This document shows positions 8,362 through 63,376 of a stretch of 64,000 nucleotides of DNA, one piece after another. Within the stretch, counting starts at the first letter, position 1; the number at the start of each line of letters is the position of its first letter. The position numbers and the translations under genes are program-made. Below the pieces are notes generated by a model. That model saw only the letters and a program-made list of their open reading frames with translations. It ran no database searches and was not told where the DNA came from. Source of the DNA: Bactericera cockerelli (Eukaryota > Arthropoda > Insecta > Hemiptera > Triozidae); NCBI GenBank assembly GCA_024516035.1, contig CM044957.1, positions 3,445,017 to 3,509,016 of the forward strand. Reading direction: 5' to 3'.

Positions 8362-8700
8362 ATGAACGCTGGTATCGATGTTGCAGTAGTTTTGGATTTC
8401 TCTATCGATATTGAATTAGTAATCGATCTATCTTTCGATATACTAGCAGTTTTGGATTTATCTATCGATATTCCAGTAGTAATCGATCTCTCTATCGATA
8501 TCCCAGTAGTTTTGGATTTCTCTATCGATATTCCAGTAGTAATCGATTTCTCTACCGATATTCATTTAGTAATCGAACTCTCTTCAATAATCGAACTCTC
8601 TATTGATATCCAGTAGCTTTTGATCTATCTATCGAAATATTCCATTGGGTATCGATCTCTCCTCAATAATCGAACTCTCTATCGATATTCCAGTAGTACT
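8362..8700. repeat. ATCGAT-rich degenerate tandem array
   Basis: Alternating units of about 27-33 bp contain TCTATCGATATTCCAGTAGT and related variants. The palindrome TATCGATA appears about five times. The array overlaps the 3' end of the putative last exon of the TTLL4-like gene: the exon end, GATCTCGAGTACTACTGGAA on the minus strand, is itself a diverged unit. Confidence 0.8.
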
Positions 8701-8878
8701 CGAGATCGAGATAGTCGACGCACTGTTCCTCCTCGGGCTGCACCGTGGTGAGCGAGGCATAGGAGAGCAGGGAGGATGGCACAGGGAGGCGCAGTGACAT
8801 CAGGAGACCTATGAGCTTGGCGCACAAGCGACGTAGCGGAATGAACGAGGGAGCAATGTGCCGGGGAACCAGAAATGC
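8663..8878 (-). CDS. TTLL4: TTLL4-like gene, putative terminal exon
   Basis: A polypyrimidine tract and CCAG acceptor precede 8878. One frame is open for 71 codons (AFLVPRHIAPSF ... LPVPSSLLSYASL ... EEEQCVDYLDLE) to a TGA at 8663. It has G/C-biased third positions like the other exons. The preceding exon at 11646 ends in phase 1, however, while this frame needs phase 0, so a small exon would have to lie between. The phase-compatible alternative frame stops at 8679 but looks less coding. The 3' part overlaps the ATCGAT array. Confidence 0.5.
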   Translation of the reverse strand, partial: AFLVPRHIAPSFIPLRRLCAKLIGLLMSLRLPVPSSLLSYASLTTVQPEEEQCVDYLDLEYYWNIDREFDY

Positions 8879-8879
8879 C

Positions 8880-10415
8880 TGGAGGGGAGGGAGAGCAAGT
8901 GATTGAGGAGCTTTGTGGTGTCCAGTGTGTTCAAGTGTTCATTGCCAACTGACCTTACCTTTTGATTGTGAAATCTCGAGTGATTTTTTTTTCTTTTTAT
9001 TTGTTGGAATGGTAAAATAAGTTTGATTTAAGTTTATAAATGGTGTTTTTATACCTAAATAAAGTTCAAATATAAATACGTATCTGTGTTACCACCCATC
9101 AAATATAAAATATGTACCTTGTTTCCAAATGGAAAAATAAATTATTGGACTCTTTAGCCTCACTTTGGCATTATCAAGAAGATATTAAATTAAATTACAG
9201 AAACCCAATGTTGTGGTCTCTAGAACTCGTATTATTTTGAAATGCAAACAATCGAAAGATTAGCCTTTCAGGGAAAATCGAACTTTGGACTCGACACATT
9301 CACTGAGATAAATGTCTTTTAAAAATTGTGTTTACAGAAGTCGTACGTAGAACTTGTGTTTTTTTACATAATACAGCAGTAGACTCTGTGTTGACAATAT
9401 TTTTTTAACACATCGATACATCACTACTTACTACTATTAACTTACCATTCAATCCTTTTGTTTACAATGTATTTTATTTTTTAATCCTTTTTTCCCAAGG
9501 TTTATTTGGACACATTGTTTAAATGTACTACAAGTATTCCCAAGTGAGCAATAGAAATACCATTAATTTGATTCATTCAAAATTTAACCATTAAAAAAGA
9601 ACCTAGCGAATTGATGAGACTTTTTAAGATGGCTTAACTCGATCTAAAACTAAACTTTTTTCCTACTAGGATGGAATCACACTCTTACATGATAATATTA
9701 ATATTTAAAGTGGAGCCTTTTTTTCTTTTCTTTTTTTCAACAAGATACCCTTTTTATTGGTTATGTATAAATCATATAAGAACAATATAAATAAAGAAAA
9801 TATAATAGTAAATATGAATTATTGAGATGCTGTGACCCTTCTTGGGGTTATGGTGCATCTCAATATAACAATGGGTTCGTTCATTTTATTGGCTATTCTA
9901 GGAACTATATTGAAAAACTTTATGTTGTAAAAGTTTCGAGCTGTTAATTTGTTCGTTAAATGAAATACACATCTGTCAAATTCTTGTTAAAATTTTAAAG
10001 CATCATTTTTTTCAATGAAAAATATAATTACACTGTACAATTAACGAGACGTACGATGTCATATGAACCTCCCGTTTGGCGCCGAGTAAGGATACCAAAG
10101 AGGGGAAATTTGGTTTTTTACATGTGACATTTTACATTGAGTCAGGCACTTACTTGTGTGGGTTTGAAGTTGACTTGCGAGATATCCAGATGTACGCCGC
10201 GTTTACAATGATCTTCTAGAATTTTGATACCTAAGAGAGAGGTAGGGTACAGTATTAGGTACATGAAGCAAAATTTTATATTGTACAGCAAACTTATCCT
10301 GCAACTTTTGTGTGTGTTTTTTTTTTTTTTTTTTTTTTTTGATACATTTACAATCTACAAAATAAAGTAGAATAAAATATATTTGTGATGGTTAATCTGA
10401 TGAGAATAAATGACA
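8880..10415. other. AT-rich intron, no recognised features
   Basis: This is intronic or downstream sequence of the TTLL4-like gene with T-rich runs near 9710-9740. A small TTLL4 exon may be hidden here or further upstream, but I could not identify one with confidence. Confidence 0.35.
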
Positions 10416-11360
10416 TGGGTCATTTTCATTTATCTTGGGCATATCAAGTCCGCAACCTTTCTCCTTTAATAAATGTGAAAATAATAGGGATATATGACTA
10501 AAATCTATTTGATCACATAGGAAACAATTTTTTTTATAAATTACAATAATAAATTGTCTTTTAAACTAATGTGGAGACTCAAAATTGCCAGTTATGTAAG
10601 TAACGTTCATGATATTTTAGGTGTCCCTTAGTCTAAGATTTTACTGTGTATGATAGAAAAAAATGCATTTCTCCCCATTATTTTCACCAAAATCCAATAT
10701 AAATGAGAAAAATACAGTTTATTTAGGATGTGACCATTAGTTTGCATAAAAATAATAATGTTCACCTCATTCTACAGACGTGTAAAGTTGTGTCCCTACA
10801 AAGAAAAAAAAAATCTCCGTCATGAATGTTACCCCCAGAAAAATGTAAACCATTTTGAAAAACCCTTAGAATGAGAAGCTAGCAGCTGCCGCCATTTTGC
10901 TTCATACAGATGACATTGTTTTTGTTTTGAAATTTCCTGTCAGTTGGATTTTGGATGCAGTACAGTGAGGGACAATGGTGGGTCTAATTTTTTTTGACAA
11001 GAATGTTACGCGGTTTTTTAAATAAATTGTAATGATTCTTTAATATATAATGTATTTCTTTAATTCTTCTGCATGTCCTCTTTCCAATCAAATATTTTTT
11101 TTTGTAAAGTGAATATTCTTTTATTGAGAAAAGATTGTTTTAGTGGCGTGTTACTCATGAACGTTACCGTCATGAACGTTACCTGGTACGTTAAGTTTTT
11201 GTAATTTTGTGTGAAGAGGTAGCTGCTAGAAATATTCTAAATGAAATCTTTTGCTCAAAGGTATTTGTCTTAGTCTTCTGAGCCTAAAAATTGTTTAGGA
11301 AAAAGGTAACGTTCATGACTTGAAAAAATCCAATTCCCCAAGATAAATGAAAATGACCCA
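10416..11360. mobile_element. Non-autonomous TIR element, about 945 bp
   Basis: The ends are inverted copies of about 25 bp containing GGGTCATTTTCATTTATCTT. Inside, the motif GTAACGTTCATGA or its complement occurs about five times (near 10600, 10822, 11150, 11170 and 11305) in both orientations. An A/T-rich interior without a transposase frame suggests a non-autonomous DNA element. The superfamily is not determined. Confidence 0.65.
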
Positions 11361-11448
11361 CATGAAGGAGAAGTTGCCCAATCACAGCACAGCAACTTAT
11401 GAAATGATAATCCAGTCATTTGGACCGATTTATAAAATAGCAATTTAA

Positions 11449-11632
11449 GGCGCTAGTTTGGTTATTAAGGTCGCGTAGGGATCCGTTGGTTTGAATCCCA
11501 TCCAATGCAATATTTTTTCATTATTTATTTGAGTTTGTGACTACACAATAATAAGACTCTGTGGGTTAGGTGGTAGAAAATGCTTTGAGCATTAGCCTCG
11601 CCTGGTGGTTACCTTCCACTTGAGACTATTAC
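11449..11632 (+). mobile_element. SINE, family A, abutting a splice donor
   Basis: The copy starts inside the degraded tRNA-like head, continues with GGATCCGTTGGTTTGAATCC (B box), and ends with the family tail CCTCGCCTGGTGGTTACCTT. Its 3' end lies about 10-15 bp from the donor of the exon at 11646. Confidence 0.75.
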
Positions 11633-11645
11633 TAGTAGAGCTCAC

Positions 11646-11767
11646 CTTTAGACCGGTCGGAATGATGAGCGAACTCCCAAGCGTCGAACAGCATGTTGTA
11701 GTAGCGGGGGCCCTCGAACCACTGGAAGTATTTGTGGGAGGTGGTGGTGGGGAACACCTTCACAAAC
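11646..11767 (-). CDS. TTLL4: TTLL4-like gene, exon (SHKYFQWFEGPRYYN)
   Basis: The acceptor CTCCAG precedes 11767 and the donor GTGAGC follows 11646. It encodes FVKVFPTTTSHKYFQWFEGP and RYYNMLFDAWEFAHHSDRSK, matching the C-terminal TTLL4 segment after the catalytic domain. It enters in phase 2 (completing TC|G) and leaves in phase 1, which agrees with the preceding exon. Confidence 0.9.
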
Positions 11768-11891
11768 CTGGAGGAGTGTTTCAACACAAGGCGAACAATA
11801 AATAAATAACTCGGCTATGGCCACTTATAATAAAATAACTATACTTAATTCATATATTTTTGCAGGAGGGATACTTTGTCAAGTAACGTCA

Positions 11892-12096
11892 TAATTGAGA
11901 AAAAGATAAACACTTGTCTTCACTCGACAGAAATTTGAAATATGAACAGTTATAACAACATGAGTTGTCTTGAAAATGCCTACAGGAGTAGGCGAAACAT
12001 GTCGACTCTGTGAACTTTTATACTTGTTTCCTTAATAATTATAACTGTTTCAACTTTCTGTCGAGTGAAGACAAGTGTTTATCTTTTTCTCAATTA
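11892..12096. mobile_element. MITE-like inverted repeat element
   Basis: The ends, starting TAATTGAGAAAAAGATAAAC and ending with its complement, are inverted copies of about 60 bp around a core with CCTACAGGAGTAGGCG. The flanking bases fit a TA target duplication. There is no coding frame. Confidence 0.7.
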
Positions 12097-12349
12097 TACT
12101 TACCTAATTCAATTGAAACATTTCTTTTACAATCACTACACTTTATCCCATAAAAGAAATAAGACTTGTTTGACTGCTGGAGTAAAGGGATTTTTCAGTC
12201 TTACCTCGGCAGTATAAACAAGGTATATTTTAAAATTCTAAATTCTAAATACTCTCTTTTCAAATGATCAATTCTAAATTCTTGGAATACACCCGTCAAT
12301 TCTTGTAAAAAAGTGTATTATTTGTGTATTTATATCACAATTTTTGGTC

Positions 12350-12935
12350 GTTTCATTTCAAGGTCATTAGAGGTCAAGGTCGTTCAATTCCAAGTTTATT
12401 CCATGTCAAGGTCATTATAGGTCAAGATAGTTTCATTTTAAGGTCATTCTATGTCAAAGTTATTCTAGTTAAAGGTCAAGGTCATTTCAATTCAAGGTCA
12501 TTCAAAAGATTAACCTTGAATCTAATTCAAGGTCGTTCCACTTAGAGGTTATTCTAGGTCAAGGTTGTTCCACTTCAAGGTCATTATTAGTCAGGGTCGT
12601 TTCTTTTCAAGGTCATTCAATATCAAGGTTATTCTAGTTCATTGGATTTCAAGGTCATTTTAGTTCAAGGTCGTTCCATTTCAAGGTCATTTTTGGTCAA
12701 GGTCGTTTCATTTCAAGGTCTTTATATGTCAAGGTGATTTCATGTCAAGGTCATTCAATATCAAGGCTATTCTAGTTTAAGGTCGTTTCTTTTAAGGTCA
12801 AGATCGTTCAATTTCAAGGTCATTTCATTTAAAGGTCATTCTAGTTCATTCAATTCCAAGGTCATTATTGGTCAAGGTCGTTTCATTTGAAGGTCAATAA
12901 AGGTCAATGTCGATTCATTTCAAGGTCATTATAAG
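12350..12935. repeat. Degenerate array rich in TCAAGGTCA
   Basis: Irregular units of about 15-30 bp are built from TTTCAAGGTCATT, GGTCAAGGTCGTTCC and TTCTAGGTC. I count at least 13 matches to TNAAGGTCA and about as many AAGGTCG variants, nearly all in one orientation. The array ends about 10-30 bp downstream (in gene direction) of the splice donor at 12944. Confidence 0.85.
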
Positions 12936-12943
12936 TTACTTAC

Positions 12944-13472: not shown

Positions 13473-13521
13473 TCCTCATTTATTGACTATGTGAACACAT
13501 GATATTACGACTCTAAAGGCC

Positions 13522-16500
13522 AAATTATGAAACAGGATTAGATTCAATTTATTCGAAAGTGCAATTTATTCGAAAATACCTTGTTTAAAAATTTCTAAAT
13601 TTGATGACTTGTTATGTGAACAAATTTTTGAACTGAGCTGTGTTAAGCTTAATTTTGCTACGAATTACTTGGTTTGTTGTATCTATAGATCACCTCAGTC
13701 ATGTCTTTCTTCTTTTTTAAGTAAATTTGAAACTTTTCTGGATAGAGTTTTTGAAGTTTTTGGTCAGAGTGTTCTTCTTCTTATTTTTGGCGATCTTAAC
13801 GTAGATGGTTTGAACGATAGTACCAATGATTATAGAAGACTGAAATCGTTGTTTGATACTTATGGTCTGGTTAATCATGTTCGGGAACCTACTAGGATAA
13901 ATGCCCAACTGGACTATGCTATTACCAACTTTTACCGCGATGTCACATGTCAGGTTAAAGATTACTCCCTATCTGACCACAAGTGTCAAATACTAAATGT
14001 GAAAACAATATTTAAACCTAGCAGAACTATTCAGGTCAAGAGAAATATAAATGATACTAGCTTAAGTCAATTGTTTTCCTTAATCACCGAAGCAAACTGG
14101 GATGATGTTTATCAAATAGCGGGCTCTGAACAAAAGTGGAAGGTCTTTTTAAGTATTTTTGAACTTTACTTCAATATTTCATGCCCAGAAAAAAGAGTTA
14201 TTACAAAAACTAAGAACTACAAAGTTGACTATAAGAATTATCCTAACTTGGAAATTATGAGACAGGATATGTTGTGCGCAAAGTCAGAATTACGCAGTAA
14301 TAACTCTTCTGCAAATAAGGCTAATTTTAAATTTTTAAAGGGAAGATTTTTGTCTGAACTTAAGAAAATTAAATCGCAGGATCTAACTAATAAAATAAGA
14401 AATGCTGGGGATAACTTATCTAAGACGTCCTGGGAAATAGTGGATCAAGTTTCACATTATAAAAAGAAAAAAAAGATGGCTTGCAATAACATTAGCCTTC
14501 AAGTGGAGGACAACCTAGTGACTGACCCGGACGTCTTGTGTAACGTTTTTAATAATCATTTTCTCAATATTCCTACACCTTGTTCTTCTGCTACCCCATC
14601 AAATACAGCTGCGGAACCTGATATACCACAATCTATATTTTTCTTACCTGTTACTGAGACTGAACTCTTCAGAATCGTACGGGACTTACCTAATAAGGTT
14701 TCGGCTGGAATTGATGGGGTTTCATATAAGGTAATAAAGTTTTGTATTTTACCCCTTTTGAGCATTCTAACATACCTTTATAATGAATCTTTTAATGATG
14801 GAATTTTTCCAGATCCTTTGAAAGTTGGTCTTATCAAACCATTGTACAAAAGCAAGGGTGAATCTTCAAATTGCAAAAATTATCGCCCGATAACACTTAC
14901 TCCCTCTTTTGGCAAAATTTTTGAAAAGCTCATTTATGAGAGATTACTATCTTTTTTTTCTAAATATAATATACTGAATAACTTCCAGCATGGTTTTAGG
15001 CATAAACGATCGACAGGCACCGCTTTAGCAATTTATATTCAAGAAGTTCTTGAAAAGTTGGATCAAAAGCACCATGTTTCTGGGTGTTTCCTTGATCTAA
15101 CACGGGCTTTCGATTGTGTCAAACATGATTTGCTTCTAAAAAAACTTTGGGGCTACGGAATTAGGGGTAATTCACACAATCTCTTGAGCTCATACCTCAC
15201 AAATCGCGTTCAAATTGTTGAACTAGTAAATCTTTCATCTGTCAATGGAGAATCTTTAAACTTGCCTGATATTTCAAATTTCAAACAATTTTCCGACACT
15301 TTGTATGAGTCCAAGCATCGATCTAATCCTCAAAGGGTAAACTTTGGTGTCCCTCAAGGCTCCATATTAGGGCCTCTCTTTTTTATTGTATACGTAAATA
15401 ATTTTCCCTTGCTTTTCGATACATTGCTTAATCTTTTAGCTATTGCATTTGCGGATGATACCTCACTTCTCCTCAGTGAAAGATCTTGTGAGGATCTTGT
15501 CAGTAGATGTGAAGCAACTTTGCTAGAGGTGAATTCCTATATGTCATCTCTTAATATGGTTTTAAATATCGAGAAAAGTGAAATTCTTAAGTTTACCTTG
15601 CGAAACAGTGTTGACTTCCGCCTTAGTCTGGGCGGGAACGAGCTGCATGCAGTTCATTCTGTCAAGTTGCTGGGTGTTCACATTGATGAGCATCTTAGAT
15701 GGGATGTTCATATTGAACATCTTTGCTCTAGACTGTCCTCTAGTACCTATTTACTGTGGAGATTGTCTGACTATCTTCCTCAAGATGTTCTTCTGAATGT
15801 TTATTATGGAGTTTTTTACTCTTTGTTGAGCTATGGTATTGAAATTTGGGGATCAGCGCCCCATACCTACACTGAACGTATTCTTATTTTGCAGAAAAAA
15901 GCGATTAGATATACTTTCAAACTACAACGCTTTCAATCAGTACGTCTAATTTTTAAGGAGAAGGGCTTACTCACTATCTATTCCCTTTATATATATAAAG
16001 TCATCACACTTGCACTCAGAGATGATCTTAAACAACACAAGTGTGTTAAAGATATCACATCTTATAACCTCAGAAATAAAAATGACTTTCAAAGAGATAC
16101 GTTTCATTTCCATAAAACTTCCACAGGACCATTCACTATGGGCAAAATTTTCTTCAATGCATTACCATCTGAAATAAAATCTTGTTTAACAAAATCGAAG
16201 ACATACTTCCTAAAACAATTAAAAGACTATCTATTATTACATCCATTTTACTCCATAAATGAATATTTAGAGGAACACTGATGTCACTTACCTTTAATCT
16301 TATTTTCTAAGAATTGCAAAATATTTTTATATTATTATTATTATTAGAATTACTTTACGCACATATAGTTTCATTTTCACTGTGCCTGTCTATAATTTAA
16401 ATTTAAATTGACGATATTCATAATTTTTGTAAAAAAAAATGAAAACGAATAAATAAAAAATAAAACAAATAAAATAAATTCAATCGCAGTGGACACTATT

Positions 16501-16825: not shown

Positions 16826-16874
16826 TAATAATAATAATAACTTCCACTAAAGATGATAATACACAGTTCAAACG

Positions 16875-16942
16875 TCAAATACAACTCATATACACGGCTA
16901 CAACTCATATACACGGCTACAACTCATATACACGGCTACATT
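16875..16942. repeat. Short 19-bp tandem repeat, three copies
   Basis: Three copies of ACAACTCATATACACGGCT lie about 25 bp downstream (in gene direction) of the donor at 16965. Confidence 0.85.
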
Positions 16943-16964
16943 GTGCCAAAATAAACCATCTCAC

Positions 16965-18740: not shown

Positions 18741-18960
18741 CTCCAACAGCCAGGGCTTGAGCTTGCTGTCTAGCAGAATGTCTATTCCGAACAGCTCGTA
18801 CGAGCAGTAGCGCGACTGCTGGTTTGTTCTGGTCAGCTGGCTGATGGAGTGCTCGCCGCATATCATGGTCTTGATGATCACGTCGACTATACTGTCCTGC
18901 AGGGAAGCCACGTCTACCTTGTGCTCTGACTCCAGGTAGCTCCACAGTGACTTGAGTGTC
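18741..18960 (-). CDS. TTLL4: TTLL4-like gene, exon with SYELFGIDILLD
   Basis: The exon encodes TLKSLWSYLESEHKVDVASL, QDSIVDVIIKTMICGEHSIS, QLTRTNQQSRYCSYELFGID and ILLDSKLKPWLLE, the distal catalytic core of TTLL enzymes. The donor GTGAGC is beside 18741. The acceptor at 18961-18963 is the nearest of about 20 tandem copies of the same acceptor. It takes phase 2 from the exon at 22412 (TG|G gives Trp) and leaves in phase 0. Only this innermost acceptor keeps the frame open. Confidence 0.95.
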
Positions 18961-20485
18961 CTGCAACACATAAGTATTTACTATACTGTCCTGCAGGTCT
19001 ACCTTGTGCTCTGACTCCAGGTAGCTCCACAGTGACTTGAGTGTCCTGCAACACATAAGTATTTACTATACTGTCCTGCAGGTCTACCTTGTGCTCTGAC
19101 TCCAGGGAGCTCCACAGTGACTTGAGTATCCTGCAACACATAAGTATTTACTATACTGTCCTGCACGTTTACCTTGTGCTCTGACTCCAGGTAGCTCCAC
19201 AGTGACTTGAGTGTCCTGCAACACATAAGTATTTACTATACTGTCCTGCAGGTAGCTCCACAGTGACTTGAGTGTCCTGCAACACATAAGTATTTACTAT
19301 ACTGTCCTGCAGGTAGCTCCACAGTGACTTGAGTGTCCTGCAACACATAAGTATTTACTATACTTTCCTGCAGGGAGGCCACGTCTACCTTGTGCTCTGA
19401 CTCCAGGTAGCTCCACAGTGACTTGAGTGTCCTGCAACACATAAGTATTTACTATACTGTCCTGCAGGTAGCTCCACAGTGACTTGAGTGTCCTGCAACA
19501 CATAAGTATTTACTATACTGTCCTGCAGGTAGCTCCACAGTGACTTGAGTGTCCTGCAACACATAAGTATTTACTATACTGTCCTGTAGGTAGCTCCACA
19601 GTGACTTGAGTGTCCTGCAACACATAAGTATTTACTATACTGTCCTGCACGTCTACCTTGTGCTCTGACTCCAGGTAGCTCCACAGTGACTTGAGTGTCC
19701 TGCAACACATAAGTATTTACTATACTGTCCTGCACGTCTACCTTGTGCTCTGACTCCAGGTAGCTCCACAGTGACTTGAGTGTCCTGCAACACATAAGTA
19801 TTTACTATACTGTCCTGCACGTCTACCTTGTGCTCTGACTCCAGGTAGCTCCACAGTGACTTGAGTGTCCTGCAACACATAAGTATTTACTATACTGTCC
19901 TGCACGTCTACCTTGTGCTCTGACTCCAGGTAGCTCCACAGTGACTTGAGTGTCCTGCAACACATAAGTATTTACTATACTGTCCTGCACGTCTACCTTG
20001 TGCTCTGACTCCAGGTAGCTCCACAGTGACTTGAGTGTCCTGCAACACATAAGTATTTACTATACTGTCCTGCACGTTTACCTTGTGCTCTGACTCCAGG
20101 TAGCTCCACAGTGACTTGAGTGTCATGCAACACATAAGTATTTACTATACTGTCCTGCAGGTAGCTCCACAGTGACTTGAGTGTCCTGCAACACATAAGT
20201 ATTTACTATACTGTCTGCAGGTAGCCTCCACAGTGACTTGAGTGTCCTGCAACACATAAGTATTTACTATACTGTCCTGCAGGTAGCTCCACAGTGACTT
20301 GAGTGTCCTGCAACACATAAGTATTTACTATACTGTCCTGCACGTCTACCTTGTGCTCTGACTCCAGGTAGCTCCACAGTGACTTGAGTGTCCTGCAACA
20401 CATAAGTATTTACTATACTGTCCTGCACGTCTACCTTGTGCTCTGACTCCAGGTAGCTCCACAGTGACTTGAGTGTCCTGCAACA
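18961..20485. repeat. 85/61-bp minisatellite made of a splice acceptor and exon start
   Basis: About 20 units each contain (minus strand) the intron end AAATACTTATGTGTTGCAG followed by the first exon bases GACACTCAAGTCACTGTGGA, up to GACAGTATAGT. Long units are 85 bp. Short units of 61 bp lack 24 bp between two AG|GTAG-like points, and a few carry an extra 12 bp as in the real exon. The most upstream copy, at 20470-20485, is preceded by unrelated intron sequence and is probably the ancestral acceptor. Confidence 0.97.
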
Positions 20486-20599
20486 TGGTTTTATTTCTCG
20501 TCTTTGACAGTAGTAATTAAATGATATAAATAATATGCTTTAAAAGGTAACTAAGTACTATTTTAGAGGTAACTGAAAGTCAATAGTCCTCATGAGGGT

Positions 20600-22411
20600 A
20601 TCATACTCACCACTTGTGGCCCAGTGACAAGCCTCTGCATCTTCACTCCGAGTGTAGCCACAGCACTCAGCTTGTACTACTTAATAGTCCTCATGAGGCA
20701 ACACGGTATTATTCTCACCACTTGGGGGTCTTGGGGCCCTGACAAGCGTCGGCATCTTCATTCTGGGTGTAGCTAGCACTCAGCTTGTACTACTCAATAG
20801 TCCTCATGAGGGAACTCACTATCTTACTCACCACTTGTGGCCCTGGCAAGCTTCGGCATCTTCATTCTGGGTGTAGCCAGCACTTAGCTTGTACTACTCA
20901 ATAGTCCTCATGAGGGAACTCACTATCTTACTCACCACTTGTGACCCTGGCAAGCCTCTGCATCTTCATTCTGGGTGTAGCTAGCACTCAGCTTGTACTA
21001 CTCAATAGTCCTCATAAGGGCACTCACTATCTTACTCACCACTTGTGACCCTGGCAAGCTTCGGCATCTTCATTCTGGGTGTAGCTAGCACTCAGCTTGT
21101 ACTACTCAATAGTCCTCATGAGGGAACTCACTATATTACTCACCACTTGTGGCCCAGTGACAAGCCTCTGCATCTTCACTCCGAGTGTAGCCAGCACTCA
21201 GCTTGTACTACTCAATAGTCCTCATAAGGGCACTCACTATCTTACTCACCACTTGTGACCCTGGCAAGCCTCTGCATCTTCATTCTGGGTGTAGCTAGCA
21301 CTCAGCTTGTACTACTCAATAGTCCTCATGAGGGAAGAACTCACTATCTTACTCACCACTTGTGGCCCTGGCAAGCCTCTGCATCTTCATTCTGGGTGTA
21401 GCCAGCACTCAGCTTGTACTACTCAATAGTCCTCACGAGGCAACTCACTATCTTACTCACCACTTGTGGCCCTGGCAAGCCTCTGCATCTTCATTCTGGG
21501 TGTAGCTAGGCACTCAGCTTGTACTACTCAATAGTCCTCATGAGGGAAGAACTCACTATCTTACTCACCACTTGTGGCCCTGGCAAGCCTCTGCATCTTC
21601 ATTCTGGGTGTAGCCAGCACTCAGCTTGTACTACTCAATAGTCCTCATGAGGGAAGAACTCACTATCTTACTCACCACTTGTGGCCCTGGCAAGCCTCTG
21701 CATCTTCATTCTGGGTGTAGCTAGCACTCAGTTTGTACTACTCAATAGTCCTCATGAGGAAACTCACTATCTTACTCACCACTTGTGGCCCTGGCAAGCT
21801 TCGGCATCCTCATTCTGGGTGTAGCTAGCACTCAGTTTGTACTACTCAATAGTCCTCATAAGGGCACTCACTATCTTACTCACCACTTGTGGCCCTGGCA
21901 AGCTTCGGCATCTTCATTCTGGGTGTAGCTAGCACTCAGCTTGTACTACTCAATAGTCCTCATAAGGGCACTCACTATCTTACTCACCACTTGTGGCCCT
22001 GGCAAGCCTCTGCATCTTCATTCTGGGTGTAGCTAGCACTCAGCTTGTACTACTCAATAGTCCTCATGAGGGAACTCACTATCTTACTCACCACTTGTGG
22101 CCCTGGCAAGCTTCGGCATCTTCATTCTGGGTGTAGCTAGGCACTCAGCTTGTACTACTCAATAGTCCTCATGAGGGAAGAACTCACTATCTTACTCACC
22201 ACTTGTGGCCCTGGCAAGCTTCGGCATCTTCATTCTGGGTGTAGCTAGGCACTCAGCTTGTACTACTCAATAGTCCTCATGAGGGCACTCACTATCTTAC
22301 TCACCACTTGTGGCCCTGGCAAGCTTCGGCATCTTCATTCTGGGTGTAGCTAGCGCTCAGCTTGTACTACTCAATAGTCCTCATGAGGGAAGAACTCACT
22401 ATCTTACTCAC
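20600..22411. repeat. 103-110-bp minisatellite made of an exon end and splice donor
   Basis: About 17 units each carry (minus strand) roughly 65 bp of the 3' end of the exon at 22412 (KLSASYTQNEDAEACQGHKW), the donor GTGAGTAAGATAGTGAG, and about 35 bp of intron (CCTCATGAGGACTATTGAGT). Two variants of the exon part, CTTCGGC and CCTCTGC, alternate along the array. Read past the donor, each copy meets an in-frame TGA at once. Confidence 0.97.
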
Positions 22412-22538
22412 CACTTGTGCCCCTGGCAAGCCTCTGCATCTTCATTCTGGGTGTAGCTAGCACTCAGCTTGTTGATGCTATAGTTGGTCAGGTGCATGTA
22501 TCTGTCCTGCAGGGTTTCACTGTGCGCGCTGTACTTCA
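22412..22538 (-). CDS. TTLL4: TTLL4-like gene, exon with MHLTNYSIN
   Basis: The exon encodes KYSAHSETLQDRYMHLTNYS then INKLSASYTQNEDAEACQGH K. HLTNYS is a hallmark of the TTL domain. It enters in phase 1 and leaves in phase 2, matching both neighbours. Its last 65 bp and donor are the seed of the array at 20600-22411. Confidence 0.96.
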
Positions 22539-24549: not shown

Positions 24550-24808
24550 TTAAGTGGGGTTTAACGTCGCTTTCAACTGCCATGGTCATATCACGACGGG
24601 GGTTTTACCCTCCATTCGCAGGAAACTCACAAACCTGCTACTCACATTGACCTCACCCAGCCTGAGTGGGGCCGGGAAAAGCCAGCGTCACGAGAATTAG
24701 AATTAGAATGGTCACCCATCCAAGTCTTAACCTCGCTGGATGTCGCTTAACTTCGGTGTTCTGAAGGGAACCGGTGTATTCAACATGCCATCAACGCTGG
24801 CTAAAAAA
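24550..24808 (-). mobile_element. 5S rRNA-derived SINE (SINE3-like)
   Basis: On the minus strand the head reads ACACCGGTTCCCTTCAGAAC then ACCGAAGTTAAGCGACATCC and TTGGATGGGTGACCATTC, which follows 5S rRNA through its internal promoter region. The tail GGGTGAGGTCAATGTGAGTA ... GCAGTTGAAAGCGACGTTAA is shared with the copies at 30009, 45672 and 61210. Confidence 0.85.
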
Positions 24809-26136: not shown

Positions 26137-27597
26137 CATTGCCCAAAAACAGGCTGTCCTTGCGACCTATCTGGAATGGCAATTTCTTCCAAGCAACAAT
26201 GATGAGTTTGTACGGATACTCACTCTTGTATGGATACTCATGCCAGGCCAACACTTTCGTAATGTTACATGTAACAAATTCGCCAATCTGAACTGGATCC
26301 GAGCACAGACGCGAACACTGAGCACAACGATCAGTGGAGAAACATGTGAATGGTACAGTAACACGCTCATGTTACACGTTACATTACGGATACTCACTCC
26401 TGCATGGATACTCACTTCTGCATGGATACTCACTCTTTCTCCCCGTACTTCATCATGCACTTGAGCAGGTTCTTCCACAGCCTGTCCTTGCGGCCTATCT
26501 GGATACTCACTTCTGCATGGATACTCACTTCTGCATGGATACTCACTTCTGCATGGATACTCACTCTTTCTCCCCGTACTTCATCATGCACTTGAGCAGG
26601 TTCTTCCACAGCCTGTCCTTGCGGCCTATCTGGATACTCACTTCTGCATGGATACTCACTTCTGCATGGATACTCACTCTTTCTCCCCGTACTTCATCAT
26701 GCACTTGAGCAGGTTCTTCCACAGCCTGTCCTTGCGGCCTATCTGGATACTCACTCCTGCATGGATACTCACTCCTGCATGGATACTCACTTCTGCATGG
26801 ATACTCACTTCTGCATGGATACTCACTTCTGCATGGATACTCACTCTTTCTCCCCGTACTTCATCATGCACTTGAGCAGGTTCTTCCACAGCCTGTCCTT
26901 GCGGCCTATCTGGATACTCACTCCTGCATGGATACTCACTCCTGCATGGATACTCACTCCTGCATGGATACTCACTTCTGCATGGATACTCACTCCTGCA
27001 TGGATACTCACTCTTTCTCCCCGTACTTCATCATGCACTTGAGCAGGTTCTTCCACAGCCTGTCCTTGCGACCTATCTGGATACTCACTTCTGCATGGAT
27101 ACTCACTTCTGCATGGATACTCACTCCTGCATGGATACTCACTCTTTCTCCCCGTACTTCATCATGCACTTGAGCAGGTTCTTCCACAGCCTGTCCTTGC
27201 GGCTTATCTGGATACTCACTTCTGCATGGATACTCACTCCTGCATGGATACTCACTCCTGCATGGATACTCACTTCTGTATGGATACTCACTTCTGTATG
27301 GATACTCACTCCTGCATGGATACTCACTTCTGCATGGATACTCACTTCTGTATGGATACTCACTCCTGCATGGATACTCACTTCTGCATGGATACTCACT
27401 CCTGTATGGATACTCACTTCTGCACGGATACTCACTTCTGCATGGATACTCACTTCTGTATGGATACTCACTCCTGCATGGATACTCACTTCTGCATGGA
27501 TACTCACTTCTGTATGGATACTCACTCCTGCATGGATACTCACTTCTGCATGGATACTCACTCCTGCATGGATACTCACTTCTGCATGGATACTCAC
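26137..27597. repeat. Hierarchical array of exon ends and donor-like 18-mers
   Basis: Six copies of about 65-70 bp of the end of the exon at 27598 (QIGRKDRLWKNLLKCMMKYG EKE plus GTGAGTATCC on the minus strand) are separated by variable runs of an 18-bp unit, TGCAGAAGTGAGTATCCA. A degenerate seventh copy lies at 26150-26175. The 18-mer itself contains the donor GTGAGT. I count roughly 45 or more such units, mostly between 27200 and 27597. Confidence 0.96.
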
Positions 27598-27766
27598 TCT
27601 TTCTCTCCATACTTCATCATGCACTTGAGCAGGTTCTTCCACAGCCTGTCCTTGCGACCTATCTGGAACGTGCCGGGGAAGTGGTTGATCTTCTGGGACT
27701 CCTTGAGCGTGCGGAAGCTCAGACTCTTCATGTGCTTCCCCCAGGTCCCCACCCACTCGCTCGACT
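27598..27766 (-). CDS. TTLL4: TTLL4-like gene, exon (GRKDRLWKNL)
   Basis: The exon encodes SSEWVGTWGKHMKSLSFRTL, KESQKINHFPGTFQIGRKDR and LWKNLLKCMMKYGEKE. WGKHMK and NHFPG...GRKDRL are conserved in TTLL4/5 enzymes. The acceptor TTTCAG is followed by an exon of 169 bp (phase 1 in, phase 2 out), consistent with both neighbours. Its 3' end seeds the array next to it. Confidence 0.97.
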
Positions 27767-28261: not shown

Positions 28262-29414
28262 TCATTCGGAGGGGCGAGGCAGGAGGACAAGTAGGAGGGA
28301 GAAGGCAAGGGGGGAGGGGTAGGCGGGGGAAGTAGGAGGGAGGGGTTAGACTCACGATGAGAAGGAGGAGACTGCAGGGAGAGTAGGAGGTAGGGGCAGT
28401 ACAAGTTGGAGGGAGGAGGAATAAGGGAGGGAGGAAGACCCACGCTGAGAAGGAAACTGCAGGACACGAGGAATAGTGGGAGGGAGGAGGAAAGATGTTG
28501 GGAGGGAGAAGCAGGGGAAGTACAAGTAGGAGGGATGCGTGGGAAGGGGAGAGATAGTAAAGGAGGGAGAGAGGAAGGAAGACTCACGCTGAGAAGAAAA
28601 GAACTGCAGGACCAGATTGGGAGGATTGGGAGGGACGAGATAGGAGGACATGTAGAGAGGAGGAGGGGAAGGGAGGAGAAGTACAAGTAGGAGGGATGCG
28701 CGGGAGAGGGGGGGGGGAGCAAGGGAGGGAGAAAGGTAGACTGACGCTGAGAAGAAGAAAACTGCAGGACCAGAGGAGGAGGTGGGAGGGGAAGTACAAG
28801 GAAGAGCGATGCGTGGGAGGGGGGAGAGATAGTAAGGGAGGGAGAAAGGAAGACTCACGCTGAGAAGAAGAGAACTGCAGGACCAGATTGGGAGGATTGG
28901 GAGGGACGAGATAGGAGGACATGTAGAGAGGAGGAGGGGAAGGGAGGAGAAGTACAAGTAGGAGGGATGCGCGGGAGAGGGGGGGGGGAGCAAGGGAGGG
29001 AGAAAGGAAGACTCACGCTGAGAAGAAGAAAACTGCAGGACCAGAGGAGGAGGTGGGAGGGGAAGTACAAGGAGGAGCGATACGTGGGAGGGGGAGATAT
29101 AGTAAGGGAGGGAGAAAGGAAGACTCACGCTGAGAAGAAGAGAACTGCAGGACCAGATTGGGAGGATTGGGAGGGACGAGATAGGAGGACATGTAGAGGG
29201 GAGGAGGAGGAGGAGGGAGGAGAAGTACAAGTAAGAGGGATGCCCGGGAGAGGGGGGGGGGAGCAAGGGAGGGAGAGGAAGGAAGACTCACGCTGAGAAG
29301 AAGAAAACTGCAGGACCAGATTGGGAGGATTGGGAGGGACGAGATAGGAGGACATGTAGAGAGGAGGAGACGACATCAGAGGAGGAGGAGGAGGCGGGGG
29401 CGGGGGGGACTCAC
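28262..29414. repeat. Purine-rich minisatellite starting at a splice donor
   Basis: About seven to eight irregular units of roughly 90-165 bp are rich in GGGAGGG and AGGAGG. Each contains GACTCACGCTGAGAAG followed by a piece with AACTGCAGGACCAGA. On the minus strand the first reads CTTCTCAGCGTGAGTC, a donor-like copy of the true junction CGTGCGCA|GTGAGTCC at 29415. The pyrimidine-rich minus strand gives long Pro/Ser-rich frames that are artefacts. Confidence 0.88.
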
Positions 29415-30008: not shown

Positions 30009-30235
30009 TGCCAGCGTCGATGGCGCGTTGAATGCACCGGTTCTCGTTGGATCACCGAAGTTAAGCAACGTCCAGCGAGGTGAAGACTTCGTGATGCTGG
30101 CATTCCGGCCCAACCCAGGCTGGGTGAGGTTAATGTGGGTAGCAGGTTTGTGAGTTTCCTGCGAATGGAGGGTAATACCCCCGTCGTGATATGACCATGC
30201 AGTTGAAAGCGACGTTAAACCCAAAAAAAAAAGAA
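30009..30235 (+). mobile_element. 5S rRNA-derived SINE, best-preserved copy
   Basis: The head reads GCCAGCGTCGATGGCGCGTT, then CACCGGTTCTCGTTGGATCA and CCGAAGTTAAGCAACGTCCA, closely following 5S rRNA. The region around the last internal promoter box is shortened, but the closing stem TGCTGGC remains. The shared tail runs to GTTGAAAGCGACGTTAAACC and an A run. Confidence 0.88.
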
Positions 30236-30462: not shown

Positions 30463-30627
30463 CCGGAACCGCTTTCGCATTACTTCAGGGCACTTTACCT
30501 TTACATCCATGCCATTCCGGAAACGGAAAATTTCGGTCAGAAATTTCCACTCCGGCTGGGATTCGAACCCGCAACCTCCGGGTCAGTAACCAATGCTCTT
30601 GACCACTGAGCCACGGAGGTCGGCAGG
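30463..30627 (-). mobile_element. SINE, family H (tRNA-derived)
   Basis: The minus strand reads CCTCCGTGGCTCAGTGGTCA then CGGGTTCGAATCCCAGCCGG, with the tail GGTAAAGTGCCCTGAAGTAA. A related copy lies at 56500-56705. Confidence 0.75.
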
Positions 30628-30703
30628 AGAAGATATCTTACTTTGATCGTCATGGCTACAGAAGCGAATGTAGGGGTGTTTTCACCTGTTGGAGATATCT
30701 TAC
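30628..30703. repeat. Two-copy duplication of an exon end and donor
   Basis: The sequence GATATCTTACTTTGATCGTC followed by ATGGCTACAGAAGCGRATGT is present at 30634 and again at 30693. The second copy is the true 3' end and donor of the exon at 30704; the first is a displaced partial copy. Confidence 0.9.
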
Positions 30704-30825
30704 TTTGATCGTCATGGCTACAGAAGCGGATGTAGGGCGGAACGTTGCTAAACAGGCTCAGTCTTAGTCCAGGGTGCAGATTGGGGCACTCTATGGGTTT
30801 GGGACGGCATACTTTGGTTTCTAGT
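30704..30825 (-). CDS. TTLL4: TTLL4-like gene, exon (LRLSLFSNVPPYIRFCS)
   Basis: The exon encodes LETKVCRPKPIECPNLHPGL then RLSLFSNVPPYIRFCSHDDQ. LFSNVPP is typical of the region just before the TTL domain in TTLL4. The acceptor TTTCAG and donor GTAAGA flank it. Phase 2 in and phase 1 out match both neighbours. Confidence 0.93.
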
Positions 30826-40406: not shown

Positions 40407-40511
40407 TATTTTGTGCATTACCTTGTGTATTGTTACCTTGTGTATTGTTACCTTGTGTATTGTTACCTTGTGTATTGTTACCTTGTGTATTGTTACCTTG
40501 TGTATTGTGTT
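40407..40511. repeat. 15-bp in-frame donor repeat, about six copies
   Basis: On the minus strand the unit is ATACACAAGGTAACA. Each copy repeats the exon end (TIHK) and the donor AAG|GTAACA. Because 15 is a multiple of 3 and no stop occurs, each later donor would add VTIHK to the protein. Confidence 0.93.
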
Positions 40512-40796
40512 GCTGTTTGTGAACAGCGGGCGGTTGCTGCTCCTCAACATCCGAGGCTCCGACACGCCTCCCGACACAGAGGCTTTCCACCTCGAAGCAC
40601 TGTCCAAACACTCGGACTTGGACCGCTTCCTGTTGATGGCGAGGCTGGTGGCCCGGTCACACTTTGGACAGCACACCTCCCGCCCCAGGCTGTCCATGCA
40701 GTAGGGTGTGGGAGAGAGGGGGTTGTAGCCCCCCCTGCCCCCTCCCCTGTGGTAGGTGGGCGTGGCCACGTCCGAAGAGGCCATGACGGAGACCCG
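40497..40796 (-). CDS. TTLL4: TTLL4-like gene, most 5' confident exon
   Basis: The exon encodes RVSV then MASSDVATPTYHRGGGRGGY, NPLSPTPYCMDSLGREVCCP and KCDRATSLAINRKRSKSECL DSASRWKASVSGG...TNSNTIHK. Two Cys pairs (VCCPKC) are visible. The acceptor GTTCCAG and the first donor AAG|GTAACA give exactly 100 codons, phase 0 at both ends. The ATG at 40784 could be the start if the upstream exon is non-coding. The frame is also open upstream to the acceptor. Confidence 0.85.
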
Positions 40797-55567: not shown

Positions 55568-55768
55568 GTCCCGGTAGCTCAGTGGTAAAGGCGGCACTGT
55601 GTGAATCCAAAGACTCCAGAGTTCGTGGGTTCGAAACCCATCCGGAACATGACAAGTTATCCTCCCATTTGGGATTTTTACCACATAATAATATGTCTTG
55701 GGCTTACTGCTGGAATAATGAGACTTAAATAGTCCTAATGGAGTAGTATAAATAAGGCGATACTATTA
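55568..55768 (+). mobile_element. SINE, family B
   Basis: A full copy with head TCCCGGTAGCTCAGTGGTAA, B box GGTTCGAAACCCATCCGG, and tail ATAATATGTCTTGGGCTTAC. An inverted tail fragment of the same family lies at 56012-56085. Confidence 0.88.
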
Positions 55769-56715: not shown

Positions 56716-56907
56716 GTACCGACACCTCATAGGGGACAGCTACTCCAAAGAGAACCTCTACGTGGTGAGCACAGATGTGGACAGGACTCTGATGAGCGCG
56801 GAGGCTAACCTGGCCGGGCTGTTCCCCCTGAGGGGAAACAGGTGTGGGACCCAGCCATCAAGTGGCAACCCATCCCCGTGCACACCATACCGGAGAAGAT
56901 GGACAAG
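56716..56907 (+). CDS. Acid phosphatase, exon 3, with a one-base frame break
   Basis: The exon starts [20 protein letters not shown] and [21 protein letters not shown], then requires a frame change to read [33 protein letters not shown] and WQPIPVHT are strongly conserved. The exon is 192 bp, where the flanking phases (2 in, 0 out) need 193. One base is therefore missing, near 56836-56842 (GGGGAAACAGG). Confidence 0.92.
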
Positions 56908-58342: not shown

Positions 58343-58561
58343 GTCCATGTTCTACTTCTCACTTTTCTGTTTAAACTGATTAAAATAGAGAGGTTAGTTG
58401 ATGCCATGGATAATCAGAACTATTACCTGCTGATGAGAGCAAATAAGCTCGAGCAAATAACAGCTGTCCAGGTATGCTCTGATATTCATGTTCATCTAGT
58501 ACAACTTCTCACTTTTCTGTTTAAACTGAAAACTGATTATTATTATCTACTCCACTCCCAG

Positions 58562-58870: not shown

Positions 58871-58944
58871 GTGATTACCTATCCGTGTTTTTTTTTTTTT
58901 TTTTTTTTTTTTTGATATACATATCTCAGGTTGTTAGCTAGCTT

Positions 58945-59821: not shown

Positions 59822-60027
59822 GTCCCCTACTAGACGACATCGTGAAACACATGGTTGCCAAGTCCAAACAGAAACTGAAGAAGAAGAAGATGTGGATCTA
59901 CTCAGCTCACGACACCACTGTAGCCAACCTACTCAACACTCTGGATGTTTTCGACATACACTGCCCGCCCTATGCCTCCGCAGTGATGATAGAACTGCAC
60001 CTGGATGAGGGAATGTACTTTGTTAGA
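59822..60027 (+). CDS. Acid phosphatase, exon 5 (HD motif)
   Basis: The exon encodes PLLDDIVKHMVAKSKQKLKK, KKMWIYSAHDTTVANLLNTL and DVFDIHCPPYASAVMIELHL DEGMYFVR. The Asp of SAHDTTV is the proton donor of the family. The acceptor TTGCCAG and donor GTAAGT flank it, 206 bp, with phases 1 and 0. Its end and donor resemble the units of the array that follows. Confidence 0.96.
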
Positions 60028-61135
60028 GTAAGTGAGTGAGGTAGAGGAGAACCAGTTCTTTGTGAATGTAAGTGACTCAGTGAGTGAGTGAGGTAGAGAA
60101 TCACTTCTTTGTGAATGTAAGTGAGTGAGTCAGAGAACCAGTTCTTTGTGAATGATAGTGACTCAGTGAGTGAGTGAGGTAGAGAATCAGTTCTTTGTGA
60201 ATGTAAGTGAGTGAGTCAAAGAACCAGTTCTTTGTAAATGTAAGTGACTCAGTGAGTGAGTGAGGCAGAGAACCAGTTCTTTGTGAATGTAACTGAGTGA
60301 GTCAGAGAACCAGTTCTTTGTGACTGTAAGTGACTCAGTGAGTGAGTGAGGCAGAGAACCAGTTCTTTGTAAATGTAAGTGACTCAGTGAGTGAGTGAGG
60401 CAGAGAACCAGTTCTTTGTAAATGTAAGTGACTCAGTGAGTGAGTGAGGCAGAGAACCAGTTCTTTGTAAATGTAAGTGACTCAGTGAGTGAGTGAGGCA
60501 GAGAACCAGTTCTTTGTAAATGTAAGTGACTCAGTAAGTGAGTGAGGCAGAGAACCAGTTCTTTGTTAATGTAAGTGACTCAGTGAGTGAGTGAGGCAGA
60601 GAACCAGTTCTTTGTAAATGTAAGTGACTCAGTGAGTGAGTGAGGCAGAGAACCAGTTCTTTGTAAATGTAAGTGACTCAGTGAGTGAGTGAGGCAGAGA
60701 ACCAGTTCTTTGTAAATGTAAGTGACTCAGTGAGTGAGTGAGGCAGAGAACCAGTTCTTTGTAAATGTAAGTGACTCAGTGAGTGAGGCAGAGAACCAGT
60801 TCTTTGTAAATGTAAGTGACTCAGTAAGTGAGTGAGGCAGAGAACCAGTTCTTTGTTAATGTAAGTGACTCAGTGAGTGAGTGAGGCAGAGAACCAGTTC
60901 TTTGTGAATGTAAGTGACTCAGTGAGTGAGTGAGGCAGAGAACCAGTTCTTTGTGAATGTAAGTGACTCAGTAAGTGAGTGAGGCAGAGAACCAGTTCTT
61001 TGTGAATGTAAGTGACTCAGTGAGTGAGGGAGTCAGAGAACCAGTTCTTTGTTAATGTAAGTGACTCAGTGTGAGTGAATGAGTTAGAGAACCTGTTCTT
61101 TGTGAATGTAAGTGACTCAGTGAGTGAAATGGTTA
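60028..61135. repeat. 49-bp minisatellite starting at a splice donor, about 20 copies
   Basis: The unit is GTAAGTGACTCAGTGAGTGA followed by GTGAGGCAGAGAACCAGTTC and TTTGTAAAT. The true junction TACTTTGTTAGA|GTAAGTGA corresponds to the unit junction TTCTTTGTAAAT|GTAAGTGA. Early copies vary between about 36 and 52 bp, while later ones are regular. Confidence 0.95.
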
Positions 61136-61209
61136 GTAAGTGAGTTGAATAATGTATAAAATAAATATTGTTTATATAGTAATCATCATAAACAACCGTC
61201 AATATCCAT

Positions 61210-61425
61210 TGCTAGACAAAGGTTACCTCCAGTTACGTAACGTCCAGCGAGTTTAGGGCTTGGATGACCAACCATTCAAATTCGAACCCTATTTCCGGCC
61301 CCACTCAGGCTGGGTGTGAGGTTAATTTGAGAACCTTGTTTTTTGAGTTTCCTACGAATGAAAGATAAAACCCCCCTCGTGATTTGACCGTGCAGTTGAA
61401 AGTGACTCTAAATCCAAATTAAATA
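61210..61425 (+). mobile_element. 5S rRNA-derived SINE, 5'-truncated
   Basis: Only the end of the 5S-like head is left (TAACGTCCAGCGAGTTTAGG, TTGGATGACCAACCATTC), followed by the shared tail to GTGACTCTAAATCC. Confidence 0.75.
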
Positions 61426-61515
61426 ATAATTAGAATCCGAATAAAAGTCTTAAAAGCCAAATGAAAATCTTAGAAGCCAAATCTATCCATCTTCCATTAT
61501 ATTAAAGTGGTGTTT

Positions 61516-61728
61516 TGTGCACTGGTAGTCAAGTGGTTAACGCGCTAGTCTGGCAATCCAGGTAGCGTGGGGATCCGTTGGTTCGAATCCCACCCAGTGC
61601 ATGAATTTTTCCTCATTCATTTGAGTTTGTGACTACACAATATTAAAACTCTGAAGGTTAGGTGGTAGAAAATACTTTGATCATTAACCTCGCCTGGTGG
61701 TTACCTTCCACTAAAGAGTTATTATTTT
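61516..61728 (+). mobile_element. SINE, family A, full copy
   Basis: The copy runs from CACTGGTAGTCAAGTGGTTA, through GTTGGTTCGAATCCCACCCA, to GGTTACCTTCCACTAAAGAG. Confidence 0.9.
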
Positions 61729-62029
61729 TCAACTTTTTAGTTATATGCACCACTTAGAAGCCAAATAAAAATGGCTTAAAATGGGTCCTCTGTGCACAAA
61801 AAAAGAAATGAAAAATAAAATAAATGATTTATTATTTTTATTTGGGTATTGAATTGTTTTCTTCCTTTTGAAGGATTTATTCAAAAATATAGACGGGTAA
61901 GAATTACCAAGTCATATATTTTGTTAGGCTGCTAGATTGAGAAACTTTCGAACTAATTAGTATATTTGCTGTTTTCAAAATGGCCGCTTATTATTATTAT
62001 TCATCGACATTTTCGTATCTAATCCCCAG

Positions 62030-62234
62030 ATCCTGTACAGGAACTCGACCAGTGTCCCCCCCTATCGCCTCACCATCCCTGGCTGTGACTTCGACTGCCC
62101 ACTGGACCAGTTCCTGTCCCTCACCGCCCCCGTCACCATCTCGGACTCCCAGTGGGAGGAGGAGTGCCACGCCCATCACCGCTTCCTTAACTTCGTGTCC
62201 ACCGTGGAGGCGGAAACCTCCCTCTCTACCTTAG
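62030..62234 (+). CDS. Acid phosphatase, exon 6
   Basis: The exon encodes ILYRNSTSVPPYRLTIPGCD, FDCPLDQFLSLTAPVTISDS and QWEEECHAHHRFLNFVSTVE AETSLSTL. LYRN and PGC...CPL are conserved in the C-terminal part, and the Cys residues would pair. The acceptor CCCCAG and donor TTAG|GTAAGT flank it, with phases 0 and 1. Its last 19 bp and donor form the repeat unit of the next array. Confidence 0.94.
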
Positions 62235-63376
62235 GTAAGTAGTAACCTCCCTCTCTACCTTGGGTAAGTAGTAACCTCCCTCTCTACCTTAGGTAAGTAG
62301 TAACCTCCCTCTCTACCTTAGGTAAGCAGTAACCTCCCTCTCTACCTTAGGTAAGCAGTAACCTCCCTCTCTACCTTAGGTAAGCAGTAACCTCCCTCTC
62401 TACCTTAGGTAAGCAGTAACCTCCCTCTCTACCTTAGGTAAGCAGTAACCTCCCTCTCTACCTTAGGTAAGCAGTAACCTCCCTCTCTACCTTAGGTAAG
62501 TAGTAACCTCCCTCTCTACCTTGGGTAAGTAGTAACCTTCCTCTCTACCTTAGGTAAGTAGTAACCTCCCTCTCTACCTTGGGTAAGTAGTAACCTTCCT
62601 CTCTACCTTAGGTAAGTAGTAACCTCCCTCTCTACCTTAGGTAAGCAGTAACCTCCTTCTCTACCTTGGGTAAGTAGTAACCTCCCTCTCTACCTTAGGT
62701 AAGTAGTAACCTCCCTCTCTACCTTAGGTAAGCAGTAACCTCCCTCTCTACCTTAGGTAAGTAGTAACCTCCCTCTCTACCTTAGGTAAGCAGTAACCTC
62801 CCTCTCTACCTTAGGTAAGCAGTAACCTCCCTCTCTACCTTAGGTAAGCAGTAACCTCCCTCTCTACCTTGGGTAAGTAGTAACCTCCCTCTCTACCTTA
62901 GGTAAGCAGTAACCTCCCTCTCTACCTTGGGTAAGTAGTAACCTCCCTCTCTACCTTAGGTAAGCAGTAACCTCCCTCTCTACCTTAGGTAAGCAGTAAC
63001 CTCCCTCTCTACCTTGGGTAAGTAGTAACCTCCCTCTCTACCTTAGGTAAGCAGTAACCTCCCTCTCTACCTTAGGTAAGCAGTAACCTCCCTCTCTACC
63101 TTAGGTAAGCAGTAACCTCCCTCTCTACCTTGGGTAAGTAGTAACCTCCCTCTCTACCTTGGGTAAGTAGTAACCTCCCTCTCTACCTTAGGTAAGCAGT
63201 AACCTCCCTCTCTACCTTAGGTAAGCAGTAACCTCCCTCTCTACCTTAGGTAAGCAGTAACCTCCCTCTCTACCTTGGGTAAGTAGTAACCTCCCTCTCT
63301 ACCTTAGGTAAGCAGTAACCTCCCTCTCTACCTTAGGTAAGCAGTAACCTCCCTCTCTACCTTAGGTAAGCAGTAT
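62216..63376. repeat. 29-bp minisatellite of exon end and donor, about 40 copies
   Basis: The unit TAACCTCCCTCTCTACCTTA followed by GGTAAGCAG repeats the last bases of exon 6 (ACCTCCCTCTCTACCTTAG) and its donor GTAAG. The variants TTAGGTAAGCAG, TTAGGTAAGTAG and TTGGGTAAGTAG are interspersed. Each unit also contains GCAG or GTAG, which is acceptor-like, after a pyrimidine-rich stretch of the previous unit. Confidence 0.97.

Follow-up and report, generated by a model that had tools for sequence, protein, structure and literature searches.

How do introns come to be filled with repeated copies of the edges of their own exons? The question is raised by a 64-kb stretch of the genome of the hemipteran insect Bactericera cockerelli (GenBank assembly GCA_024516035.1, contig CM044957.1, positions 3,445,017 to 3,509,016 of the forward strand), referred to here as the window, which has a guanine plus cytosine (GC) content of 38.4% and to which every within-window result below applies. 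Two genes lie in it: on the minus strand, one for a TTLL4-like tubulin glutamylase, and on the plus strand, one for a histidine acid phosphatase. An earlier note, made from the sequence alone, claimed that minisatellites in both of these genes, on opposite strands, had been seeded from splice junctions. In this study, we found that amplification seeded at exon edges is indeed supported in both genes, that one of the families lies across a coding end rather than a splice site, and that the arrays probably belong with structures already described in amphioxus and chicken.

Repeats were sought by two independent methods. Tandem Repeats Finder (TRF) returned 64 rows for the window, and a second scan, which collected 30-bp segments having, no more than 2.5 kb away, a copy with 24 or more of the 30 bases identical, yielded 33 families of duplicates. 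Exon bases (12-80 bp) were present in eight of the 33 families; in all eight the repeated segment reached the edge of the exon, and in none was it internal. The exon portion amounts to 50 bp at the TTLL4 coding end, 80 bp at the acceptor of exon h, 67, 78, 40 and 22 bp at the donors of exons g, e, c and a, and 12 and 31 bp at the donors of phosphatase exons 5 and 6. Near copies of 30-bp windows centered on the edges were detected for 5 of 19 donors and 1 of 19 acceptors, with phosphatase exon 5 failing; these totals predate the addition of an exon, m', which brings the models to 20 donors and 20 acceptors. Overall, six splice-edge families are strongly supported (the donors of TTLL4 exons a, c, e and g, the acceptor of exon h and the donor of phosphatase exon 6) and one, at phosphatase exon 5, is weakly supported.

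All TTLL4 exons and arrays lie on the minus strand. At the donor of exon a (40497..40796), an array (40411..40518) contains about six copies of a 15-bp unit composed of the last 11 exon bases, CAATACACAAG, followed by GTAA. The donor edge of exon c (30704..30825) is duplicated at 30620..30743 in two tandem copies with a period of 62 bp, as the earlier note had read from a two-copy start at 30628. The array at the donor of exon e (exon, 27598..27766; array, 26143..27675) combines an 18-bp donor unit with six larger units that include at least 60 bp of the exon end. At the donor of exon g (22412..22538), a 104-bp unit made of approximately 66 bp of exon and 38 bp of intron is present in 18 copies including the exon itself (20595..22478). 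The acceptor of exon h (18741..18960) is repeated at 18881..20496, where 85-bp and 61-bp units carry the intron end, the AG and the start of the exon; with the exon itself counted, there are 21 copies. Finally, terminal exon m (8663..8878), which ends in a TGA stop and was placed by frame and acceptor, overlaps an array at 8370..8712 with a 30/60-bp unit in about seven copies; it holds the last 50 bp of the coding sequence together with the stop codon. This family is not among the junction arrays of the earlier note.

The phosphatase arrays lie on the plus strand. The one at the donor of exon 6 (exon, 62030..62234; array, 62204..63381) has a 29-bp unit consisting of the last 20 exon and first 9 intron bases, in 40 copies including the exon. 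The one at the donor of exon 5 (exon, 59822..60027; array, 60016..61137) has a unit of about 49 bp in 21-24 copies and begins 12 bp inside the exon, but these 12 exon bases are diverged. The exon tail in register matches at 8 of 12 positions in the six copies shown, with a mean of 7.5 over 24 copies; the window background for at least 8 of 12 tail matches is 0.006, and a local-alignment test gave only P 0.01-0.06. Thus, seven of the eight places that had been listed as exon-derived were sustained, the one at 60028 weakly. The eighth, at 28262, is a C-rich array that follows the exon d donor in TTLL4 (28263..29379, minus strand, period of about 112-271 bp) that begins 35 bp inside the intron and has no exon bases. 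Its origin from the exon is not supported, as the tail of exon d matched it no better than did other exon pieces (P 0.25-0.62); the array is donor-like in having several copies of GTGAGTC, and seven GTRAG motifs occur in the region. From the note's tally of six donors and one acceptor, acceptor h and donors a, e, g and phosphatase 6 remain, phosphatase 5 remains weakly and donor d is lost.

Could ordinary intronic minisatellites touch exon edges by chance? An interval-overlap permutation of TRF arrays is consistent with this possibility: 5 of 20 arrays overlapped a junction, with 4.45 expected (P 0.47), and a tolerance of 30 bp gave 7 with 5.14 expected (P 0.21), again without enrichment. Moreover, many arrays are located elsewhere in the window. 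The permutation used an exon table that was still one exon short, and we judge its null to be poor, because randomly placed arrays of 1-2 kb span whole exons, which was seen in none of the actual arrays. In a source-segment test, the repeated unit was instead placed at random in the array-collapsed noncoding sequence of the two genes. Here, an edge was included in 8 of 23 local genic families, with 1.2-1.4 expected (P about 1.5e-5), and in 6 of 22 (P 0.0005-0.0012) when the coding end was excluded and phosphatase exon 5 was scored as a miss. The lengths of the units were set manually, on the basis of TRF periods and spacings, and the coding-end family was counted as genic although it starts 8 bp before the drawn genic span. 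Three of 26 genic families (23522, 29716 and 54667) had been dropped by judgement as dispersed copies of short interspersed elements (SINEs) or other transposable elements, leaving 23; with the three retained, P was 0.00009-0.00014. In addition, with the same three excluded, there are seven local genic families that span at least 500 bp, and each of them is no farther than 35 bp from a splice junction. Within this window, an excess over chance was thus obtained by unit placement and not by interval overlap. The units also carry exon bases up to the true edge, and we regard chance contact as very improbable.

Another possibility is that splice sites drive amplification through transcription, R-loops or the splicing machinery, with the coding-end array being a coincidence. 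Such a cause had been proposed in the earlier note, and seven of the eight exon-containing families are located at splice junctions. Two further arrays begin close to donors: one after exon k (12338..12940, minus strand), 3 bp past the donor, and a short one after exon j (16873..16946, minus strand; three copies of a 19-bp unit), 18 bp past it; neither has exon bases. However, the coding-end family has no splice site, and the 40:1 ratio of splice edges to coding ends in the models leaves the observed 7:1 with little weight. G-C skew of the transcript strand is negative in three and positive in four of the seven splice-edge arrays (the coding-end array and array d, whose skew is negative as well, lie outside this count), so these arrays share no R-loop-prone composition. 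We also considered GC-rich edges as seeds. This candidate was not supported: exon-side GC content was 0.514 at array edges (n=7) and 0.573 at the others (n=33; P 0.08), so that array edges are not richer in GC. For reference, GC content is 58% in exons, 36% in non-array introns and 38% in the window. Given the coding-end family, skew of both signs and the composition of array edges, we find no support for a cause that lies in splice sites, transcription or R-loops, and we consider it unlikely.

The eight edges do have one property in common, constrained coding sequence on one side and free DNA on the other. The family at the coding end suggests that amplification can do without a splice site, and the common factor may be the coding edge rather than the splice site. 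The explanation that we find probable is that these repeats are exon-edge minisatellites, of the same kind as amphioxus mirages and chicken exon stuttering, that arise by local slippage and unequal exchange and are filtered by selection. A short segment across the edge of a coding exon would be duplicated in tandem through a local error of replication or repair, and unequal exchange and gene conversion would then multiply and homogenize the copies. Selection would retain only those events in which surplus copies fall outside the mature protein. Copies would thus gather within the intron next to a donor or acceptor, or past a stop codon in the 3' untranslated region, and the authentic edge would remain as the first (or last) copy of the array. 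The exon-proximal donor or acceptor would be used, and the array would presumably be removed together with the intron. The duplication mechanism, the outcome of splicing and the exchange between exon and array are what we infer rather than observe. Surplus donors are presumably tolerated more easily than surplus acceptors, as expected from general splice-site choice, and the donor excess points in the direction expected from such tolerance, but it is not significant.

The consequences for introns are substantial. Together with the edge-adjacent arrays, among them d, j and k, the edge arrays account for 18% of the 42,588 bases in the 19 introns that are complete within the window. The intron between TTLL4 exons g and h (3,451 bp) consists of edge arrays over 97% of its length; repeats of its own donor edge come first and those of its own acceptor edge after them. 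Counting the authentic motif, the arrays contain 49 (e), 50 (g), 83 (phosphatase 5) and 40 (phosphatase 6) GTRAG motifs. If the first donor is skipped, translation reaches a stop after 1 codon in each of arrays e and g, after 3 in phosphatase 5 and after 2 in phosphatase 6, and because of these early stops the exon-proximal donor should be the one in use in these four arrays if the protein is intact. In arrays a and c, the frame remains open throughout the 28 codons examined past the first donor. Homologue alignments continue across the edges of exons d-e and g-h and phosphatase exons 5-6, and the array copies thus appear to be intronic.

These features also bear on whether the arrays themselves are under selection, as alternative or recursive splice sites or for control of intron length. 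The 29-bp unit at phosphatase exon 6 joins a pyrimidine-rich stretch, an AG and GTAAG, which we take to resemble a recursive splice site, and the open frames past exons a and c would fit alternative use. However, the early stops in the other four donor arrays speak against such a function, as do the unit lengths: only three of the eight edge units are multiples of three (15, 18 and 30 bp), the others measuring 62, 104, 85, 49 and 29 bp. In addition, no unit matches another array, the matches of all eight being confined, in a search across the 64-kb window, to their own array and exon. We find selection for such a role highly improbable.

Differences among the copies provide information on how the arrays evolve. 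In three arrays tested, no gradient with distance was detected in the difference from the exon copy (Spearman P 0.69, 0.22 and 0.81), as expected if copies exchange. Outward growth, with the newest copies next to the exon, was rejected on this basis. In the exon-derived parts of the units, third codon positions hold 9 of 13 variable sites in array g, 2 of 2 in e, 0 of 4 in h and 1 of 3 in phosphatase 6; the total of 12 of 22 (P 0.03) comes from a test that treats sites as independent and, for phosphatase 6, from positions derived by hand. This bias gives a hint that the constrained exon is the source of the variants or lies on their path, but array h argues against it.

Such variants are also relevant to the possibility that the arrays are an assembly artefact. 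The arrays are known from one assembly, and the phosphatase gene has two frame breaks within exons relative to aligned homologues, near 56824 and 58657, which may be either base errors or signs of a pseudogene. On the other hand, the copies contain distinct variants in irregular order, and copy 2 of the exon c duplication is interrupted by an insert flanked by 14-bp direct repeats. This insert was classified as SINE-like or tRNA-like by inspection, with no match by any tool. Its position makes the duplication look older than the insertion and unlikely to be produced by assembly, and we give an artefact scarcely any credence.

Several points weigh against slippage and exchange at exon edges as the explanation of these arrays. 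In addition to the failure of the interval permutation, the source-segment test was devised after the data were seen, and the window was picked because of this feature, so that its array density is not a genome-wide rate. The excess of donors over acceptors is not significant (6 of 20 and 1 of 20, P 0.09); it varies from P 0.18 (5 and 1) to P 0.044 (7 and 1, with array d counted). The third-position bias is missing in array h. Tolerance alone fails to explain why deep intron sequence, although just as free, gives rise to large arrays less often here, and the account still calls for some bias of mutation or persistence that favors edges; both a mutational bias at edges and quicker loss of deep arrays by transposon insertion are candidates. 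Decay of the phosphatase gene, should that be what its frame breaks mean, would cast doubt on constraint at its edges. Finally, large arrays with 34-bp and 31-bp units are located beyond both genes (2498-3143 and 4816-5849) with no exon recognized, so not every large array of this genome is tied to known edges.

Is this structure new? The earlier note knew of no named class of elements with this behavior, a statement that does not hold: two described systems share the anatomy. The first is the amphioxus mirages, tandem duplications spanning intron-exon boundaries (PMC3087553, PMC3902484, in excerpts). Their units are 10-72 bp long in Adh3 and 150-160 bp in globins (Canestro et al. 2002 among the sources cited there), and they are reported to show length polymorphism and somatic instability, with regular splicing undisturbed. 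The insect arrays likewise have tandem units across a donor or acceptor, with the authentic exon edge at one end and both kinds of edge affected, and unit lengths are of a similar order (15-104 bp). A minisatellite-like tandem repeat is also present here, although exon c has only two copies. The differences from the excerpted descriptions are the insect host, up to 40 copies and one family across a coding end; in addition, the present arrays are known from one assembly.

The second system, described from the dot chromosomes of chicken (Hron et al. 2026, PMC12954441), is exon stuttering. Excerpts of this report describe an exon edge and its donor or acceptor copied through the neighboring intron, with the source no more than one base from the exon border in over 90% of cases, exon parts of 20-187 bp and 1-44 copies. 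Stuttering limited to intron sequence occurs alongside, and variation of intron length between individuals is a further trait of the chicken system. The screen found the pattern in 190 of 5,572 dot-chromosome introns (3.4%), with strong enrichment on dot chromosomes, and the authors link it to GC-rich genes and mention a similar pattern in GC-rich gerbil genes (data not shown). They call the phenomenon novel, and the word "mirage" is absent from the main text. As in chicken, an edge fragment and the adjacent donor or acceptor are repeated in the intron, the border is reached in all eight families (one at the coding end), and the copies are local within the 64-kb window. In contrast to the 3.4% given there, 6 of 20 introns with a donor in the window carry edge copies, one of them weak and the count being made by another method. 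GC-rich genes are the setting that the authors propose in chicken; the insect arrays lie in a 38% GC window with 58% GC exons.

Two other processes invite comparison. Introner-like elements are sequences bearing splice signals that multiply, one sequence occurring at many loci. The present repeats are similar in that multiplied sequences carry splice signals, but none of the eight edge units was found elsewhere in the window, and no dispersal was seen within 64 kb. Intron gain, in excerpts of PMC4974935 and PMC2891723 (the latter on Drosophila), can involve a tandem duplication that spans an intron-exon boundary or copies a proto-splice site. Duplications described in this way create a new intron, whereas here many copies sit within introns, and the abstract of PMC2891723 contains no description of such arrays. 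An amphioxus VCBP gene paper mentions, in the part available, partial exons with splice sites inside introns, an amphioxus huntingtin paper does not use "mirage" in its text, and the Caenorhabditis elegans minisatellite literature was also compared in excerpt. No insect case was present among the open-literature matches listed, a set with most subscription papers outside its scope. The insect arrays are thus real. They add to a kind of structure that is already known, though not widely, and the host group is one from which no report was found; the coding end is a useful variant.

The gene models on which the edges depend were built as follows. From exon a onward, the 15 TTLL4 exons join into a single open frame of 781 codons whose sole stop is the last codon; 5' exons upstream of exon a may be missing from the model. 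The Pfam TTL profile matched in two scanned reading frames, the first homologue in a protein search was from Timema podura (66%), and exon-wise tblastn gave homologue matches for most exons. Exons a, b and m had no such match and were placed by frame and splice signals; third-position GC in the chosen frame is 0.83, 0.83 and 0.68, respectively (weak support for m). Acid phosphatase has a His_Phos_2 domain in exon 5, six of its exons were matched to homologues, and its protein search gave a first match at 74%, followed by psyllids at 65-68%.

Other repeats occur in and around these genes. A phosphatase intron contains a duplication of two segments (58344-58536, plus strand) that ends 25 bp before the exon 4 acceptor and has no exon bases. 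The intron between TTLL4 exons j and k holds an uninterrupted 916-codon reverse transcriptase open reading frame (13531-16281, plus strand; Pfam RVT_1, E 4.8e-27), whose nearest protein is 87% identical and which is likely a young retroelement of the type lacking long terminal repeats. Two sequences resembling 5S rRNA score above the Rfam gathering threshold (24680-24801, minus strand; 30010-30102, plus strand) and are perhaps 5S-derived SINEs. There are also tRNA-like Rfam matches at 55568, 55902 and 61519, and ARAGORN reported three tRNA-like genes.

A broader reading, which we offer tentatively and regard as rather doubtful, is that exon-edge amplification would be a general animal process that arose independently in lancelets, birds and insects and requires neither splice sites nor GC-rich chromosomes, only a border between constrained and free sequence. 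It would build whole introns from their own edges, and the exon would keep exchanging with its copies, making the arrays a store of mostly synonymous variants.

Mirages and exon stuttering are one structure treated in two separate literatures. Its occurrence in an insect, and in an AT-rich window, speaks against any need for dot chromosomes or for a high overall GC content, and the family at the coding end speaks against a trigger in splice sites. The arrays offer a concrete route to rapid intron growth. They also provide a natural test of donor choice: 40 near-identical donors follow one another, and the reading frame singles out the first as the one that avoids an early stop.

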